Assembly: GCA_947625915.1 (NCBI GenBank)
Contig: CANQPX010000014.1
Coordinates: forward strand, 1 to 46,596
Source of the DNA: an uncultured Clostridia bacterium
GTDB taxonomy: Bacteria > Bacillota > Clostridia > Oscillospirales > Ruminococcaceae
DNA: 46,596 nucleotides
Direction: 5' to 3'
Position numbers and translations under genes: made by a program. Below the pieces are notes generated by a model. The model was given only the letters and a program-made list of their open reading frames with translations, did no database searches and was not told the DNA's origin. Shown piece by piece: positions 1,526 to 46,596 of the stretch (its first letter is position 1; each line of letters begins with the position of its first letter).

Positions 1526-2533
1526 ATGTCCGAACAGGAAAGAAAAAAGATAATTTTAAGCAGCATACAGCCCACAGGCACTTTTACTCTTGGCAATTAC
1601 ATCGGCGCTGTCTCACGCTGGGGAAAGCTGCAGGACGAATTTGACTGTATATATTCCGTTGCGGATATGCACGCAATAACAGTCCGTCAGGATCCCGCAC
1701 AGCTTCGCAAAAGGACTATAGAATCCTATGCGCTGCTGCTCGCCTGCGGCATCGATCCGAAAAAGTCCATCGTATTTATCCAGAGCCATGCGGGAACTCA
1801 TGCTGAGCTTAACTGGATACTTGCCTGCTCGACACAGTTCGGTGAACTTTCCAGAATGACACAGTTCAAGGATAAGTCCGCAAAACACCCCGATGATATA
1901 AACGCGGGACTTTTCACATATCCCGTGCTAATGGCGGCGGATATCCTCGCTTACAACGCGGATCTCGTTCCCATAGGCGAGGATCAGCGGCAGCACCTTG
2001 AACTTGCAAGGAACGTTGCACAGCGTTTCAACGGCAAATACGGGGATTTCTTTACTGTTCCCGAAGCATACATTCCCGAAGTGGGCGCAAAAATAACATC
2101 TTTGCAGGATCCTACAAAGAAGATGTCTAAGTCGGACGAGAACCCCAACGCCTGCATTTTCATTCTTGACGAACCCGATGTTATCATCAGGAAGTTCAAG
2201 AGAGCCGTTACCGACAGCGATTCCATCGTAAGATATTCTGAGGATAAGCCCGGCATAAGCAATCTTATGTCGATATATTCCGCAGTTACCGGAAAGAACA
2301 TTCCCGATATCGAGCGGGAGTTTGACGGCAAAGGTTACGGTGATTTCAAGCTTGCGGTAGGAGAAGCCGTTGCGGACGGGCTAAAACCTGTCCGTGAGGA
2401 ATTTGACCGCCTTAGGGCTGATAAGGCGTATCTGAAAGAATGTTACATGAATGGTGCAAAGGCTGCGCTTTCCATAAGCGGAAAAGTTGCGGCGAAAGCA
2501 TATCACAAGGTAGGATTTGTTGACGCAAGATAA
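1526..2533 (+). CDS. trpS: Tryptophanyl-tRNA synthetase
   Basis: Class Ic aminoacyl-tRNA synthetase that charges tRNA-Trp using ATP in the cytoplasm. The 335-residue length is normal for bacterial TrpRS. Visible signatures are SSIQPTGTFTLGNYIGAV (the HIGH-equivalent region), the DMHAIT segment, GEDQRQHLELARN, and the KMSKS loop (KKMSKSDENPNA). An AAAGGA site precedes the ATG. It is the second gene after an aminotransferase, 30 bp away, so no separate T-box leader is possible directly upstream. A strong hairpin and then element A follow the stop codon. Confidence 0.98.
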   Translation: MSEQERKKIILSSIQPTGTFTLGNYIGAVSRWGKLQDEFDCIYSVADMHAITVRQDPAQLRKRTIESYALLLACGIDPKKSIVFIQSHAGTHAELNWILACSTQFGELSRMTQFKDKSAKHPDDINAGLFTYPVLMAADILAYNADLVPIGEDQRQHLELARNVAQRFNGKYGDFFTVPEAYIPEVGAKITSLQDPTKKMSKSDENPNACIFILDEPDVIIRKFKRAVTDSDSIVRYSEDKPGISNLMSIYSAVTGKNIPDIEREFDGKGYGDFKLAVGEAVADGLKPVREEFDRLRADKAYLKECYMNGAKAALSISGKVAAKAYHKVGFVDAR

Positions 2534-2550
2534 GATATGAAAAAATGAAC

Positions 2551-2580
2551 GGAGACACGTGAGTGTCTCCGCTTATTATT
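2551..2580 (+). terminator. Hairpin terminator after trpS
   Basis: GGAGACAC (2551-2558) pairs with GTGTCTCC (2563-2570) across a four-base loop, followed by the T-rich stretch GCTTATTATTTAT. A near copy of the same hairpin closes the far side of element A at 2867-2890. Confidence 0.7.
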
Positions 2581-2594
2581 TATAGTGTAGTTCG

Positions 2595-2866
2595 TTGTCA
2601 AACAACTCACCGGGTTGTTTGACAAGGGAAAATTTGAAAAAATCGTTAGTTCAAGGGGGAAGCCCTCTATCGCAGGGCTTCCCCCTCTTGCTGTCTGCGA
2701 CAGCAATTCACCCCCTGCGGAGCTCCTGAAGGCATTAGGAGTTCCGCCGTCTGCGGACGGCGGCGGGGGCTCCGCCCCTCGACCCCGCAGCCTTGAAAGG
2801 CTGGCGAACTTTTTGCTCAATTTTGCGCTGCGCGCAAAATTGTTAAAAACTTTTTCAACAAGCTAA
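2595..2866 (+). repeat. Element A, copy 1: multi-hairpin intergenic element
   Basis: A non-coding run of hairpins. Stem 0 is TTGTCAAACAAC (2595-2606) with its complement at 2614-2625, loop TCACCGG. Stem 1 is a 13-bp stem 2654-2666/2674-2686 with a 7-base loop. Stem 2 is TTGCTGTC/GACAGCAA (2688-2706). A further stem is GGAGCTCCT/AGGAGTTCC, then CCGCCGTC/GACGGCGG (2744-2763), GCAGCC/GGCTGG near 2787-2804 and CAATTTTGCGC/GCGCAAAATTG (2818-2842). Copy 2 at 22969-23182 keeps the architecture with different, compensated stem bases. ORFs that can be drawn through it are artefacts of GC-rich palindromes. Confidence 0.9.
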
Positions 2867-2890
2867 GCGGAGACACGCGAGTGTCTCCGC
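2867..2890 (-). terminator. Hairpin terminator of the DUF2461 gene
   Basis: GCGGAGACAC (2867-2876) pairs perfectly with GTGTCTCCGC (2881-2890) over a GCGA loop. It overlaps the stop codon of the leftward DUF2461 gene. Its stem closely matches the trpS hairpin at 2551-2570, so the two nearly identical hairpins bracket element A. Confidence 0.6.
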
Positions 2891-3573
2891 TATTTGCTGC
2901 TGCCTTTTATTAGTATGTTGTTTTCAGCTTTCATGTACATTTTGTATATGGGCGCGATTGTTTTAAAATCTTCTGCGATCTTATCCGCAAGTTTATTACT
3001 GAAAAGCAGTTCAAAATCCGTGCTTTCACAGGAAAGTCCCATTTCCTTGCGGTTGAGCCAGTCTTTTTCTTCTTCCGATGCGTTAGGATAGTGATCGCGT
3101 TTGTAAAAATCACCGTAAAGTTTGAAAACATTCTGCTCCTTATATGCTTTTAAAGCTTTTTTTGCGGTCTTGTCCTTATTGAGAATGAGCGAACGCACTT
3201 CGTTCATTGAATCCGATGAAGCGTAGTAATATCCGCAGCCGTAGCTGAATCCTTTTGTTGAGATACTGAAATAATATCCCGGAAGCGACTTGTAAGCGTC
3301 CGTAGTTCTGCTGAAAGTGTACCAGATATGGTCGCGGAATATCGAACCGCCTTTTGCATATCTTGCGTCGCGGTATATGCGGGATATTCTTTTCGGGTCG
3401 CATATGAAACGTCCGTCTATCCCGAGCATCGTATCGGTGAGATCCGTTATCAGTTCGCGGAACGGCGTTATAACATATGCGTTATAGTCGTCTCTGTGTT
3501 CTTTGAACCATGTTCTGCTGTCATTAAGGCAATTTTCAAAAAGAAAATCAATGGATCTTGCTGAGAAATTCAC
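2890..3573 (-). CDS. DUF2461 family protein (TIGR02453-like)
   Basis: A 227-residue cytoplasmic protein without signal peptide or membrane segment. The N-terminal pattern of FLFENCLNDSRTWFKEHRDDY followed by RISRIYRDARYAKGGSIFRDHIWYTFSR and a PGYYFSIS segment matches the DUF2461 family, whose biochemical role is not established. The start is a GTG at 3573 preceded by AAGGAG about 11 bp upstream. It is convergent with trpS, with element A between them, and lies 67 bp downstream of the FapA gene with a terminator hairpin between, so it may have its own promoter. Confidence 0.8.
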   Translation of the reverse strand: MNFSARSIDFLFENCLNDSRTWFKEHRDDYNAYVITPFRELITDLTDTMLGIDGRFICDPKRISRIYRDARYAKGGSIFRDHIWYTFSRTTDAYKSLPGYYFSISTKGFSYGCGYYYASSDSMNEVRSLILNKDKTAKKALKAYKEQNVFKLYGDFYKRDHYPNASEEEKDWLNRKEMGLSCESTDFELLFSNKLADKIAEDFKTIAPIYKMYMKAENNILIKGSSK

Positions 3574-22872: not shown

Positions 22873-22893
22873 GATACTTGCTTTACAAGCATT
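22873..22893 (+). repeat. 21-bp direct repeat, left copy
   Basis: A 21-base sequence starting GATACTTGCTTTAC and ending AAGCATT recurs exactly at 23259-23279. The two copies bracket element A copy 2, at a separation of 386 bp. Each holds a short CTTG/CAAG inverted repeat. Confidence 0.85.
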
Positions 22894-22968
22894 CAGAATG
22901 TCGAAAAACTAAAAACAGGCGCGGACGAACTAAAAAACGAAAAACAAAACTTTGCCCGAAAAGCTGGT

Positions 22969-23182
22969 CGAGCTGAGCCCAGCTCGCGGGGTCGAGGGGC
23001 GGAGCCCTCGCCGCCGTCCGCAGACGGCGGAACTCCTAATGCCTTTAGGCGCCTCTGCAAAAGGGTGAATTGCCGCTGTAAGCGGCAAGAGGGGAACGCT
23101 CTGCAAGAGAGAGCGTTCCCCTTGGCATTAACGGTTAATACCATTTAAGCCTTGCAAAACAGCCCGGTGAGCTGTTTTGCAA
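22969..23182 (-). repeat. Element A, copy 2 (minus orientation)
   Basis: In reverse orientation the order of hairpins matches copy 1: a 12-bp stem at 23152-23163/23171-23182 with the complement of the loop TCACCGG, a 13-bp stem with 7-base loop at 23090-23102/23110-23122, TTGCCGCT/AGCGGCAA at 23070-23088, CCGCCGTC/GACGGCGG at 23011-23030, and CGAGCTG/CAGCTCG at 22969-22986. Stem bases differ from copy 1 but pairing is kept in each. Confidence 0.9.
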
Positions 23183-23258
23183 TACAGAGCAATTTGTTTT
23201 TATAAACAGTCCGTTTTCAAACAACCATATTTTTTATAAATACTTTTTCGACAGACCG

Positions 23259-23279
23259 GATACTTGCTTTACAAGCATT
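23259..23279 (+). repeat. 21-bp direct repeat, right copy
   Basis: An exact copy of 22873-22893. It ends 10 bp before the CapA start codon, where a ribosome binding site would normally be; none is seen there. Confidence 0.85.
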
Positions 23280-23289
23280 ATCATAAATT

Positions 23290-24564
23290 ATGATACCATT
23301 CAAAAAAATATTGACGGCAGGAATTGCCGCCGCTGCGATGCTGACATCGCTTTCAGGCTGCAAAGCCGTTGAAAATACCGTTCCCGCTTCTGCGGATATG
23401 GAAATTTCCGTGATATCTTCCGCTACATCGGAAACTGCTGCCGTTACCACAACTTCCGAAACAACGACAGCCGAAACTATCCCCGAACCGGTCTACAAAA
23501 CGGTTAGCTTTGCGGTGACGGGGGATAATCTTATCCACTCGAGCATATATAAACAGGCAAATACCCGCGCAGGCGGAGAAGGGTACGATTTTACCTATGC
23601 GTATGAAAATATCGTTGATTTTATAAAACCTGCGGATATTGCGGTCATAAATCAGGAAACACTTATTTGCAATGATGTTTTTCCGCCGTCAACATATCCT
23701 ATGTTCAACAGCCCCACTGCCCTCGGAGATCATATGCTGGATATAGGGTTCGATGTGTTCACGATCGCTAACAACCATACTCTTGACAAGGGAACAGACG
23801 GGCTTTCCGCTTGTCTGGACTATTGGGACAGCCGCCCCGAAGCAGTCGTATGCGGGGCGTACCGCGATGCGGAGGACGAAAGCCGTATACGCACGCTGGA
23901 AAGAGAAGGGATAACGTTTTCTTTCCTTTCATATACGGAGTCGCTGAACGGACTTTATCTGCCGGAAGGTTCTCCGCTGGTGATAGGCAGAACGGACGAT
24001 CTTGATCTTATATGCGAACAGATAAAACAGGCAAAGGAAGTTTCCGATATATGCGTTGTGGCGCTTCACTGGGGAGTGGAAAATTCCGACATAATAAGCG
24101 ACTATCAGCGCACTGCCGCAAAAACTCTTGCCGATGCGGGAGCGGATATCATCATCGGAAATCACCCTCATGTCCTGCGCGATATTGAGGAAATAGAACG
24201 TGAGGACGGATCATTCACACTGTGCGCTTACTCTCTCGGGAATTTCATTTCCGCACAAAGCGTAGGGCAGAACCTTATCGGCGGCGTTTTGCAGTTTGAC
24301 GTGACATACGGCACGGAAAATGTTCCCGAAGATGAAAATATCCCCATCATCAGGAACATAAAGCTTATCCCCGTGATAACCCATTATGACGGGAACTATC
24401 AGAATATAAAGCTTTACCCCCTTTCGGAATATACACGGGAACTTGCAGACTCACACGGAGTAAAAAGCATGAGCAAGTTCGGATATGAGTACATTTTTGA
24501 TGTGCTGAAACAGAATATCAGCGAAAAATATTTCGACGCGGACGAGTATTATATCCCGCAATAA
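23290..24564 (+). CDS. CapA-family lipoprotein (poly-gamma-glutamate capsule synthesis-like phosphoesterase)
   Basis: A 424-residue exported protein. A lipoprotein signal ends in LTSLSGC with Cys24 as the lipidation site. A Ser/Thr-rich linker (residues 40-70) leads to a CapA metallophosphoesterase-like domain: AVTGDNLIHSS, DIAVINQET, DIGFDVFTIANNHTLDKG, VVALHWGVEN and IIGNHPHVLRDIE. Members act at the cell surface in poly-glutamate or capsule processing, or as general surface phosphoesterases; no capBCD partners lie nearby. There is no evident Shine-Dalgarno before the ATG, and the upstream 20 bases belong to the direct repeat. Confidence 0.85.
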   Translation: MIPFKKILTAGIAAAAMLTSLSGCKAVENTVPASADMEISVISSATSETAAVTTTSETTTAETIPEPVYKTVSFAVTGDNLIHSSIYKQANTRAGGEGYDFTYAYENIVDFIKPADIAVINQETLICNDVFPPSTYPMFNSPTALGDHMLDIGFDVFTIANNHTLDKGTDGLSACLDYWDSRPEAVVCGAYRDAEDESRIRTLEREGITFSFLSYTESLNGLYLPEGSPLVIGRTDDLDLICEQIKQAKEVSDICVVALHWGVENSDIISDYQRTAAKTLADAGADIIIGNHPHVLRDIEEIEREDGSFTLCAYSLGNFISAQSVGQNLIGGVLQFDVTYGTENVPEDENIPIIRNIKLIPVITHYDGNYQNIKLYPLSEYTRELADSHGVKSMSKFGYEYIFDVLKQNISEKYFDADEYYIPQ

Positions 24565-46512: not shown

Positions 46513-46596
46513 TGGTGCCGAAAAAGTTTTTAACAATTTTGCGCGCAGCGCAAAATTGAGCAAAAAGTTCGCCAGCCTTTCAAGGCTGCGGGGTCT
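46513..46596 (-). repeat. Element A, copy 3, cut by the window edge
   Basis: The reverse complement matches copy 1 from about 2781 to 2855 essentially base for base, including the CAATTTTGCGC stem and the GCAGCC/GGCTGG hairpin. It follows metA in the opposite element orientation and runs off the window end. Confidence 0.9.

Follow-up and report, generated by a model that had tools for sequence, protein, structure and literature searches.

The window, i.e. the whole stretch of 46,596 nucleotides analysed here, is one whole contig from the 2.1-Mb draft genome of a gut bacterium (73 contigs, 89% complete). It holds three copies of a multi-hairpin intergenic repeat, Element A, near the genes trpS, pncB (nicotinate phosphoribosyltransferase) and metA; these gene assignments, proposed in an earlier note on this DNA, were borne out by NCBIfam. 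Re-reading of the sequence confirmed copy 1 on the plus strand and copy 2 on the minus strand with the stems and loops quoted there, as well as a cut third copy at the right edge. The latter starts at about position 46520 and is truncated by the end of the contig, and thus of the window. Copy 2 as a whole element occupies 22894-23258, and its other side faces the start of a plus-strand reading frame at 23290. In both window copies the flanking hairpin is doubled, over exactly 21 bp in copy 2 and with a single difference, in the loop, in copy 1. The coordinates originally assigned to the element cover its body, but the terminal repeats and the duplicated hairpins fall outside them (Table 1).

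Table 1. Parts of the Element A copies in the window
Feature	Position	Strand	Basis
Copy 1: left copy of duplicated terminator hairpin (CGGAGACACGTGAGTGTCTCCGC)	2550..2572	+	direct repeat of 2868-2890, one loop difference
Copy 1: remnant of left terminal region, outer part of terminal repeat lost	2573..2594	+	comparison with other copies
Copy 1: stem 0, loop TCACCGG	2595..2625	+	stem-0 pattern, folding
Copy 1: conserved core, stems 1 to 5	2654..2781	+	covariance-model match, 140 bits; family covariation
Copy 1: stem 6 allele GCAGCCTTGAAAGGCTGGC	2787..2805	+	sequence, folding
Copy 1: stem 7 allele CAATTTTGCGCTGCGCGCAAAATTG	2818..2842	+	sequence, folding
Copy 1: right terminal repeat (CTTTTTCAACAAGCTAA)	2850..2866	+	sequence, repeat pattern
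Copy 1: right copy of duplicated terminator hairpin	2868..2890	+	sequence
Copy 2: target duplication AATGCTTGTAAAGCAAGTATC, right side	22873..22893	-	exact repeat of 23259-23279
Copy 2: right terminal repeat (AGTTTTTCGACATTCTG)	22894..22910	-	sequence
Copy 2: conserved core, stems 1 to 5	22993..23122	-	covariance-model match, 133 bits
Copy 2: stem 0	23152..23182	-	stem-0 pattern
Copy 2: left terminal repeat (CGGTCTGTCGAAAAAGTATTT)	23238..23258	-	sequence, repeat pattern
Copy 2: target duplication, left side	23259..23279	-	sequence
Third copy, cut by contig end: stem 6, stem 7, inner part of right terminal repeat	46520..46596	-	sequence, blastn

The whole unit is mostly 300-430 bp long and ends in imperfect terminal inverted repeats of the CAGTCTGTCGAAAAAG type. 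In the genome of the window, three left-end and two right-end types occur, the ends being inverted repeats similar to CAG-CTGT-GAAAAA. With up to three mismatches allowed, the terminal-repeat pattern matched 70 times in the genome and twice in the control. An end was regarded as recognised if at least 11 of its 15 bases agreed (our own threshold). Both ends were recognised in 62 of 110 copies, 60 of these 62 measuring 300-431 bp; in 48 of the 110 an end went unrecognised. At two loci (L002 and L010), two elements stand head to head, separated by no more than a hairpin or a short piece of DNA.

Outside the terminal repeats there is a hairpin, often identical on both sides. Hairpins flush with the element (42 nt, -12 kcal/mol or lower) were found at 32 of 62 left and 27 of 62 right ends, compared with 5 of 62 in control windows 108-150 bp further left. 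The insertions lie at hairpins, most of which are intrinsic terminators. The suggested reading as a transcription-end element is right as to place, but a terminating function is at most possible: the terminators are the target of insertion and are copied by it.

A direct repeat abutting both ends reached a score of 8 or more in 28 of the 62 copies and in 85 of 3782 mismatched flank pairs; at a score of 15 or more, the counts were 16 of 62 and 5 of 3782. Long repeats make up 21 of the 28. Twenty of these 21 fold as hairpins, 19 being 21-37 bp with clean or nearly clean borders; in L102, a 35-bp alignment runs past the hairpin. The sole long repeat that does not fold (L131) is a 56-bp alignment of AT-rich DNA and probably represents no duplication. 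The seven short repeats do not fold: six are of 8-11 bp and one, AT-rich, is of 17 bp. In 34 of the 62 copies no clear target repeat was seen. The trpS region offers no empty site that is clean. In 18 other genomes with a trpS orthologue, the element is absent from the up to about 330 bases behind the gene, but the sequence there differs throughout.

The element is abundant in its genome. The stem-0 pattern, with up to two mismatches, matched 125 times (66 + 59) and the reversed pattern used as a control never. By blastn at least 46 matches were obtained (best 40 of 164 candidates scored), and a covariance model of stems 1-5 gave at least 142 at E ≤ 0.001 (best 150 of 1076 candidates). By our own count, seven weak matches of the model sit antisense over stronger ones; with these subtracted, core places number at least about 135. 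Since at least 17 matches of the model fall at contig ends, copies of Element A break the assembly. Gene context was read for 98 copies from simple, uncurated reading-frame calls, 12 of the 110 copies being omitted for short flanks: 49 lie between convergent, 41 between tandem and 8 between divergent genes. The median distance is 30 bp to a gene 3' end (139 ends) and 99 bp to a gene start (57 starts). Named records with the stem-0 pattern belong, among the matches listed, mostly to uncultured Clostridia labelled Lapin, along with single records labelled Oscillospiraceae and Lachnospiraceae. A match from goat (L155) was rejected, as the body is absent behind its stem 0.

The genome of the window gave no match to an IS1182 transposase (PF13751 and NF033551, 89%-complete assembly). 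An autonomous element in it was also rejected after 14 terminal-repeat regions proved to be short elements or to have no recognised partner end. A trans-acting transposase is not required to be present in the genome, because a non-autonomous copy can outlive its helper. In another genome of the same genus (G012), a full insertion sequence with the same terminal repeats (ends CAGCCTGTAGAAAAA / TTTTTCGACAAGCTG) was located by a PF13751 profile search. Its transposase of 466 aa matches the IS1182 model NF033551 with 392 bits against a cut-off of 270, and also PF05598 and PF01609. On the side not lost from its contig, this insertion sequence, L319, directly abuts a terminator hairpin. IS1182 transposases over the cut-off occur in 2 of 21 genomes of the genus; around the transposase of G010 (L318) no such ends were found.

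Relatives of the L319 protein were detected in 11 of 297 genomes of the bacterial family (E ≤ 1e-80). Among seven with both ends seen, four show an exact hairpin duplication, of 31 bp in L322, 39 bp in L323, 29 bp in L326 and 20 bp in L329. Another, L330, has an 8-bp repeat, and L325 and L327 have unlike hairpins on their two sides, the gene of L327 containing two stops. Four of eight two-ended elements of G005, G016 and G018 repeat the whole hairpin (L311, L312, L316 and, with small differences, L309). In L311, an imperfect hairpin of about 33 bp is copied exactly, mismatches included. For the rest of this group, L310 is decayed, L313 has 7 bp, and L314 and L315 have no repeat. In G025, judged by eye, L285 carries an exact 23-bp repeat and L280 has like hairpins with different loops. 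G004 contains body-free mini-elements with IS1182-type ends; both ends are visible at four of nine loci, and all four show exact hairpin duplications of 21-24 bp. In G004, L302, L303, L304 and L306 represent an element distinct from Element A, of about 175-185 bp, with IS1182-type ends, without the body and with duplicated terminator hairpins.

Since L319 shares the ends of Element A, and four of its seven relatives show exact hairpin duplications, Element A is interpreted as an IS1182-family insertion element that lacks a transposase and is thus non-autonomous, carries a long structured cargo and, in many copies, has duplicated its target hairpin. The probability of this reading is estimated at about 0.85.

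The body of the element is a cargo of about eight hairpins. RNA folding z-scores were -11.3 and -11.2 for the two strands of copy 1 with its flanks and -9.7 for copy 2; Element A copies are far beyond chance. Covariation was studied in 90 distinct cores, 66 from the genome of the window and 24 from related genomes, which remained of 88 + 28 extracted cores after removal of identical ones and of long variants (140/146 bases or more). RNAalifold found 30 pairs, 16 of them with two-sided changes. Pair cells were paired in 97.8% of cases, compared with 82.9% after shuffling, and cells with two-sided change numbered 432 against 126. The covariation score was 0.427 against 0.152, and none of 500 shuffles reached it. 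Structures slid along the alignment paired only 44-57% of cells, a comparison in which the consensus is favoured, being derived from the same alignment. Related copies are not independent of one another. Two counts did not exceed the shuffles in the 90 cores: 16 pairs changed on both sides (shuffled 15.4), and the further pair types numbered 35 (shuffled 37.6). The compensating stem changes described by the earlier note are nevertheless real and strong by the 90-core test.

The sequence between stems 2 and 3, AATTCAC, is invariant in all 90 aligned cores, and TTCAC is present in 116 of 116 extracted copies. AATTCAC resembles the anti-Shine-Dalgarno region at the 3' end of 16S rRNA, perhaps by chance. 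The stem 4 loop CTGCGG is also constant, but the extraction itself demanded CTGCGG or a longer form. Long alleles of stems 4 and 5 (e.g. in L005, L094, L103 and L105) have extra small hairpins nested in their loops. The stem 1 loop of L163, L186 and L192 likewise has nested small hairpins, as if palindromes inserted into palindromes.

In the 66 cores from the genome of the window, the paired columns have a mean normalised mutual information of 0.98 (15 column pairs). The value for unpaired columns is 0.44 at distances under 15 bases and 0.17-0.28 at 15-89 bases, with no steady fall and with medians of 0.07-0.18. Beyond 90 bases it is 0.04-0.07, with 0.03 expected from shuffling. Thus, hairpin alleles that lie far apart occur in nearly free combination, whereas the arms of any one hairpin remain matched. 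This reassortment was read from mutual information, direct allele reading having recovered the stem-2 allele in only 41 of 96 copies. Broken hybrid hairpins are present in a few relatives (L036, L167, L205), as expected from recombination inside a hairpin.

Beyond this genome, 197 genomes of the bacterial family were sampled with the core model, and 34 of them, belonging to 24 of 125 genera, gave matches, often with at least 17 copies per matching genome among the matches listed. The ends of the body are quite unlike these in G013-like genomes (AAATGATAATTT...). There, in L162, L192, L206, L213 and L216, another terminal repeat, approximately AAATGATAATTTAGCGG, encloses the body. The copies inspected in G107, G088 and G207 showed no IS1182-type ends. 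The G107 copies L245-L258 have long extra flanks in common, with further hairpins (GGCGTTCCAGAATGGAACGC, GCGCGTAAGCGC). The body was not found in viral contigs (two patterns, 0 matches), and copy 2 had no match in plasmid or phage collections. The body is therefore a separable cargo, not tied to IS1182 ends. As other species carry it with other ends, it seems to predate its present carrier or to have arisen independently of it. The earlier note had named an insertion-sequence family as an outcome that could explain the palindromes away. Such a family accounts for the ends and the spread, but the compensation holds, and IS1182 does not explain the history of the body itself, because the same body has unrelated ends elsewhere.

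It is tentatively possible, though less likely than not, that the body is an independent mobile module and that transposon ends of at least two unrelated kinds have acquired it. Each hairpin position would then have its set of alternative hairpins, which reassort by gene conversion with the pairing kept at the DNA level. By folding a strand, as single-stranded DNA or as a cruciform, the hairpins would enable IS1182-type transposases, and perhaps others, to carry the body.

Alternatively, the body could function in the bacterial family as a structured RNA, either regulatory or situated in 3'-untranslated regions, and be spread only incidentally by transposon ends. Its presence in 24 genera, the invariant AATTCAC, the strong covariation and the folding z-score of -11.3 all favour this explanation, as do some loops of the UUCG, UACG and UGCG kinds, which we take to be stable RNA tetraloop types. 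We nevertheless consider it unlikely. Structured RNAs commonly tolerate G-U pairs, and in stems 0, 1, 2 and 4 of the copies in the genome of the window G-T accounts for only 2, and A-C for 8, of 2966 pair cells. Furthermore, tandem-placed copies have no evident preferred orientation (16 sense and 25 antisense), a regulatory RNA with about 135 copies per genome would be unusual, and Rfam gives no match. Free folding of 100 whole bodies reveals no strand preference in G-U, with 498 of 8145 pairs on the plus and 514 of 7926 on the minus strand, about 6% each.

Stem 5, which is shakily aligned, has G-T in 14 and A-C in 8 of 330 pair cells. Counted by distinct alleles, stems 0, 1, 2 and 4 contain 16 G-U in 670 pairs, 11 of them in stem 0, whose loop allows one more U-G pair. 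The corresponding count for the flanking terminator hairpins is 25 in 652. Covariation by itself does not separate the two cases, as a DNA-level cause would yield the same signal as RNA. The near-absence of G-T from stems 0, 1, 2 and 4 leans towards pairing kept at the DNA level, with few independent alleles behind it. The window had no Rfam match at the gathering score, and at E ≤ 5 the region 2400-3100 gave only two, both outside Element A. For the body, an undescribed structured RNA family is thus still possible, although the scarcity of G-T in stems 0, 1, 2 and 4, not shared by stem 5, leans to DNA. As for the folded form, a DNA hairpin is somewhat more likely than RNA, though unproven.

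A transfer of REP/BIME-like palindromes by a Y1 single-strand transposase (RAYT or IS200/IS605-type) is very improbable. It would agree with intergenic, high-copy hairpins, with near Watson-Crick-only stems suiting a single-stranded DNA substrate and with species that show no IS1182-type ends. However, Element A has terminal inverted repeats and target duplications, no Y1 transposase was found in its genome, and, by hand count, 12 of the 34 body-carrying genomes have Y1 transposases, as do 61 of the 163 others. Since Y1 does not track the body, and terminal repeats and duplications are present, a Y1/RAYT origin is disfavoured for this genome. The term REP-like mobile palindrome came nearest as regards the mobile palindrome, but the likeness to REP fails on the terminal inverted repeats and the IS1182-type target duplications. 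REP/BIME systems with RAYT (PMC2817692) resemble Element A in being intergenic palindromes, often in more than 100 copies per genome, and differ from it in that Element A has terminal repeats, target duplication and ends shared with an IS1182 transposase element, and no Y1 link.

Least probable of all is that the flanking hairpins are no target duplications but terminators of convergent genes, bidirectional or evolved independently: half of the 98 copies do lie between convergent genes and the left and right hairpins are unlike in L004, L113, L010, L325 and L327, but non-palindromic loops and stem mismatches are repeated identically in direct orientation (L311, L322, L323, L326), beside full insertion sequences as well, and mismatched flank pairs seldom give such repeats.

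The IS1182-type reading can be compared with several known systems. IS1272 and TnSha1, a composite transposon of IS1272, are IS1182-family elements of staphylococci and insert at hairpins, several of which are confirmed terminators (PMC4923244, PMC5678879). They are like Element A in family, in using hairpin targets of no fixed sequence and in the cruciform model proposed for them. Their insertion, however, replaces the target hairpin or removes part of it, with no duplication, whereas Element A doubles the whole hairpin. In contrast to hairpin loss of the IS1272 type, the hairpin here is kept and doubled wherever a duplication is seen. The present elements are also mostly short, transposase-less and very numerous, with a structured cargo. 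PMC5678879 includes a drawing of a possible pathway that would double the entire stem-loop through joining at its 5' feet, and the present elements fit this pathway.

The ISMac2-related miniature elements of Methanosarcina acetivorans (PMC3852290) are likewise short non-autonomous derivatives of the IS1182 family (160 and 169 bp). They are listed with small direct repeats (4 and 0, the column order being uncertain), and hairpin duplication and cargo go unmentioned in the portion of PMC3852290 used. ISPse1 of Paracoccus (PMC3281130) shares the family and has 16-bp terminal repeats, but made a 4-bp duplication in a trap plasmid. Given these 4 bp of ISPse1, duplication of the hairpin is not a trait of the whole IS1182 family. 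The IS1202 family (PMC10132070), which was considered for its unusually long target duplications of 16-28 bp, has a transposase of another family, and its long-duplication group is reported to show no target specificity. It was dropped once an IS1182 transposase between the same ends had come to light. In the literature searched, with subscription papers mostly outside it, neither whole-hairpin target duplication as an observed result nor this repeat was reported. The ISfinder table is reported to give long, palindrome-linked repeats for the IS1182 family, which would make the hairpin duplication less new.

Element A is thus a mobile element, real and abundant, whose cargo of several hairpins is conserved, with terminal repeats, insertion at hairpins, hairpin duplication in many copies, and stems that covary and reassort. 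An IS1182-family transposase would have moved the copies in trans, and on ordinary DNA the same enzyme would leave 8-11 bp. After insertion, copies may swap hairpins by gene conversion. Mispaired products would be lost, the folded strand presumably mattering to the element or to the host.

Whole-hairpin duplication is seen here in nature many times, in full as well as in transposase-less elements. Its length tracks that of the hairpin and is mostly 8-11 bp on unfolded DNA. The cruciform-target model therefore becomes testable with natural substrates. The covarying, reassorting cargo offers many two-sided stem changes within one genome and could help to separate a DNA-level from an RNA-level constraint on pairing. 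For the bacterium, insertion at terminators that leaves one terminator on each side would be a mild way for the element to spread.
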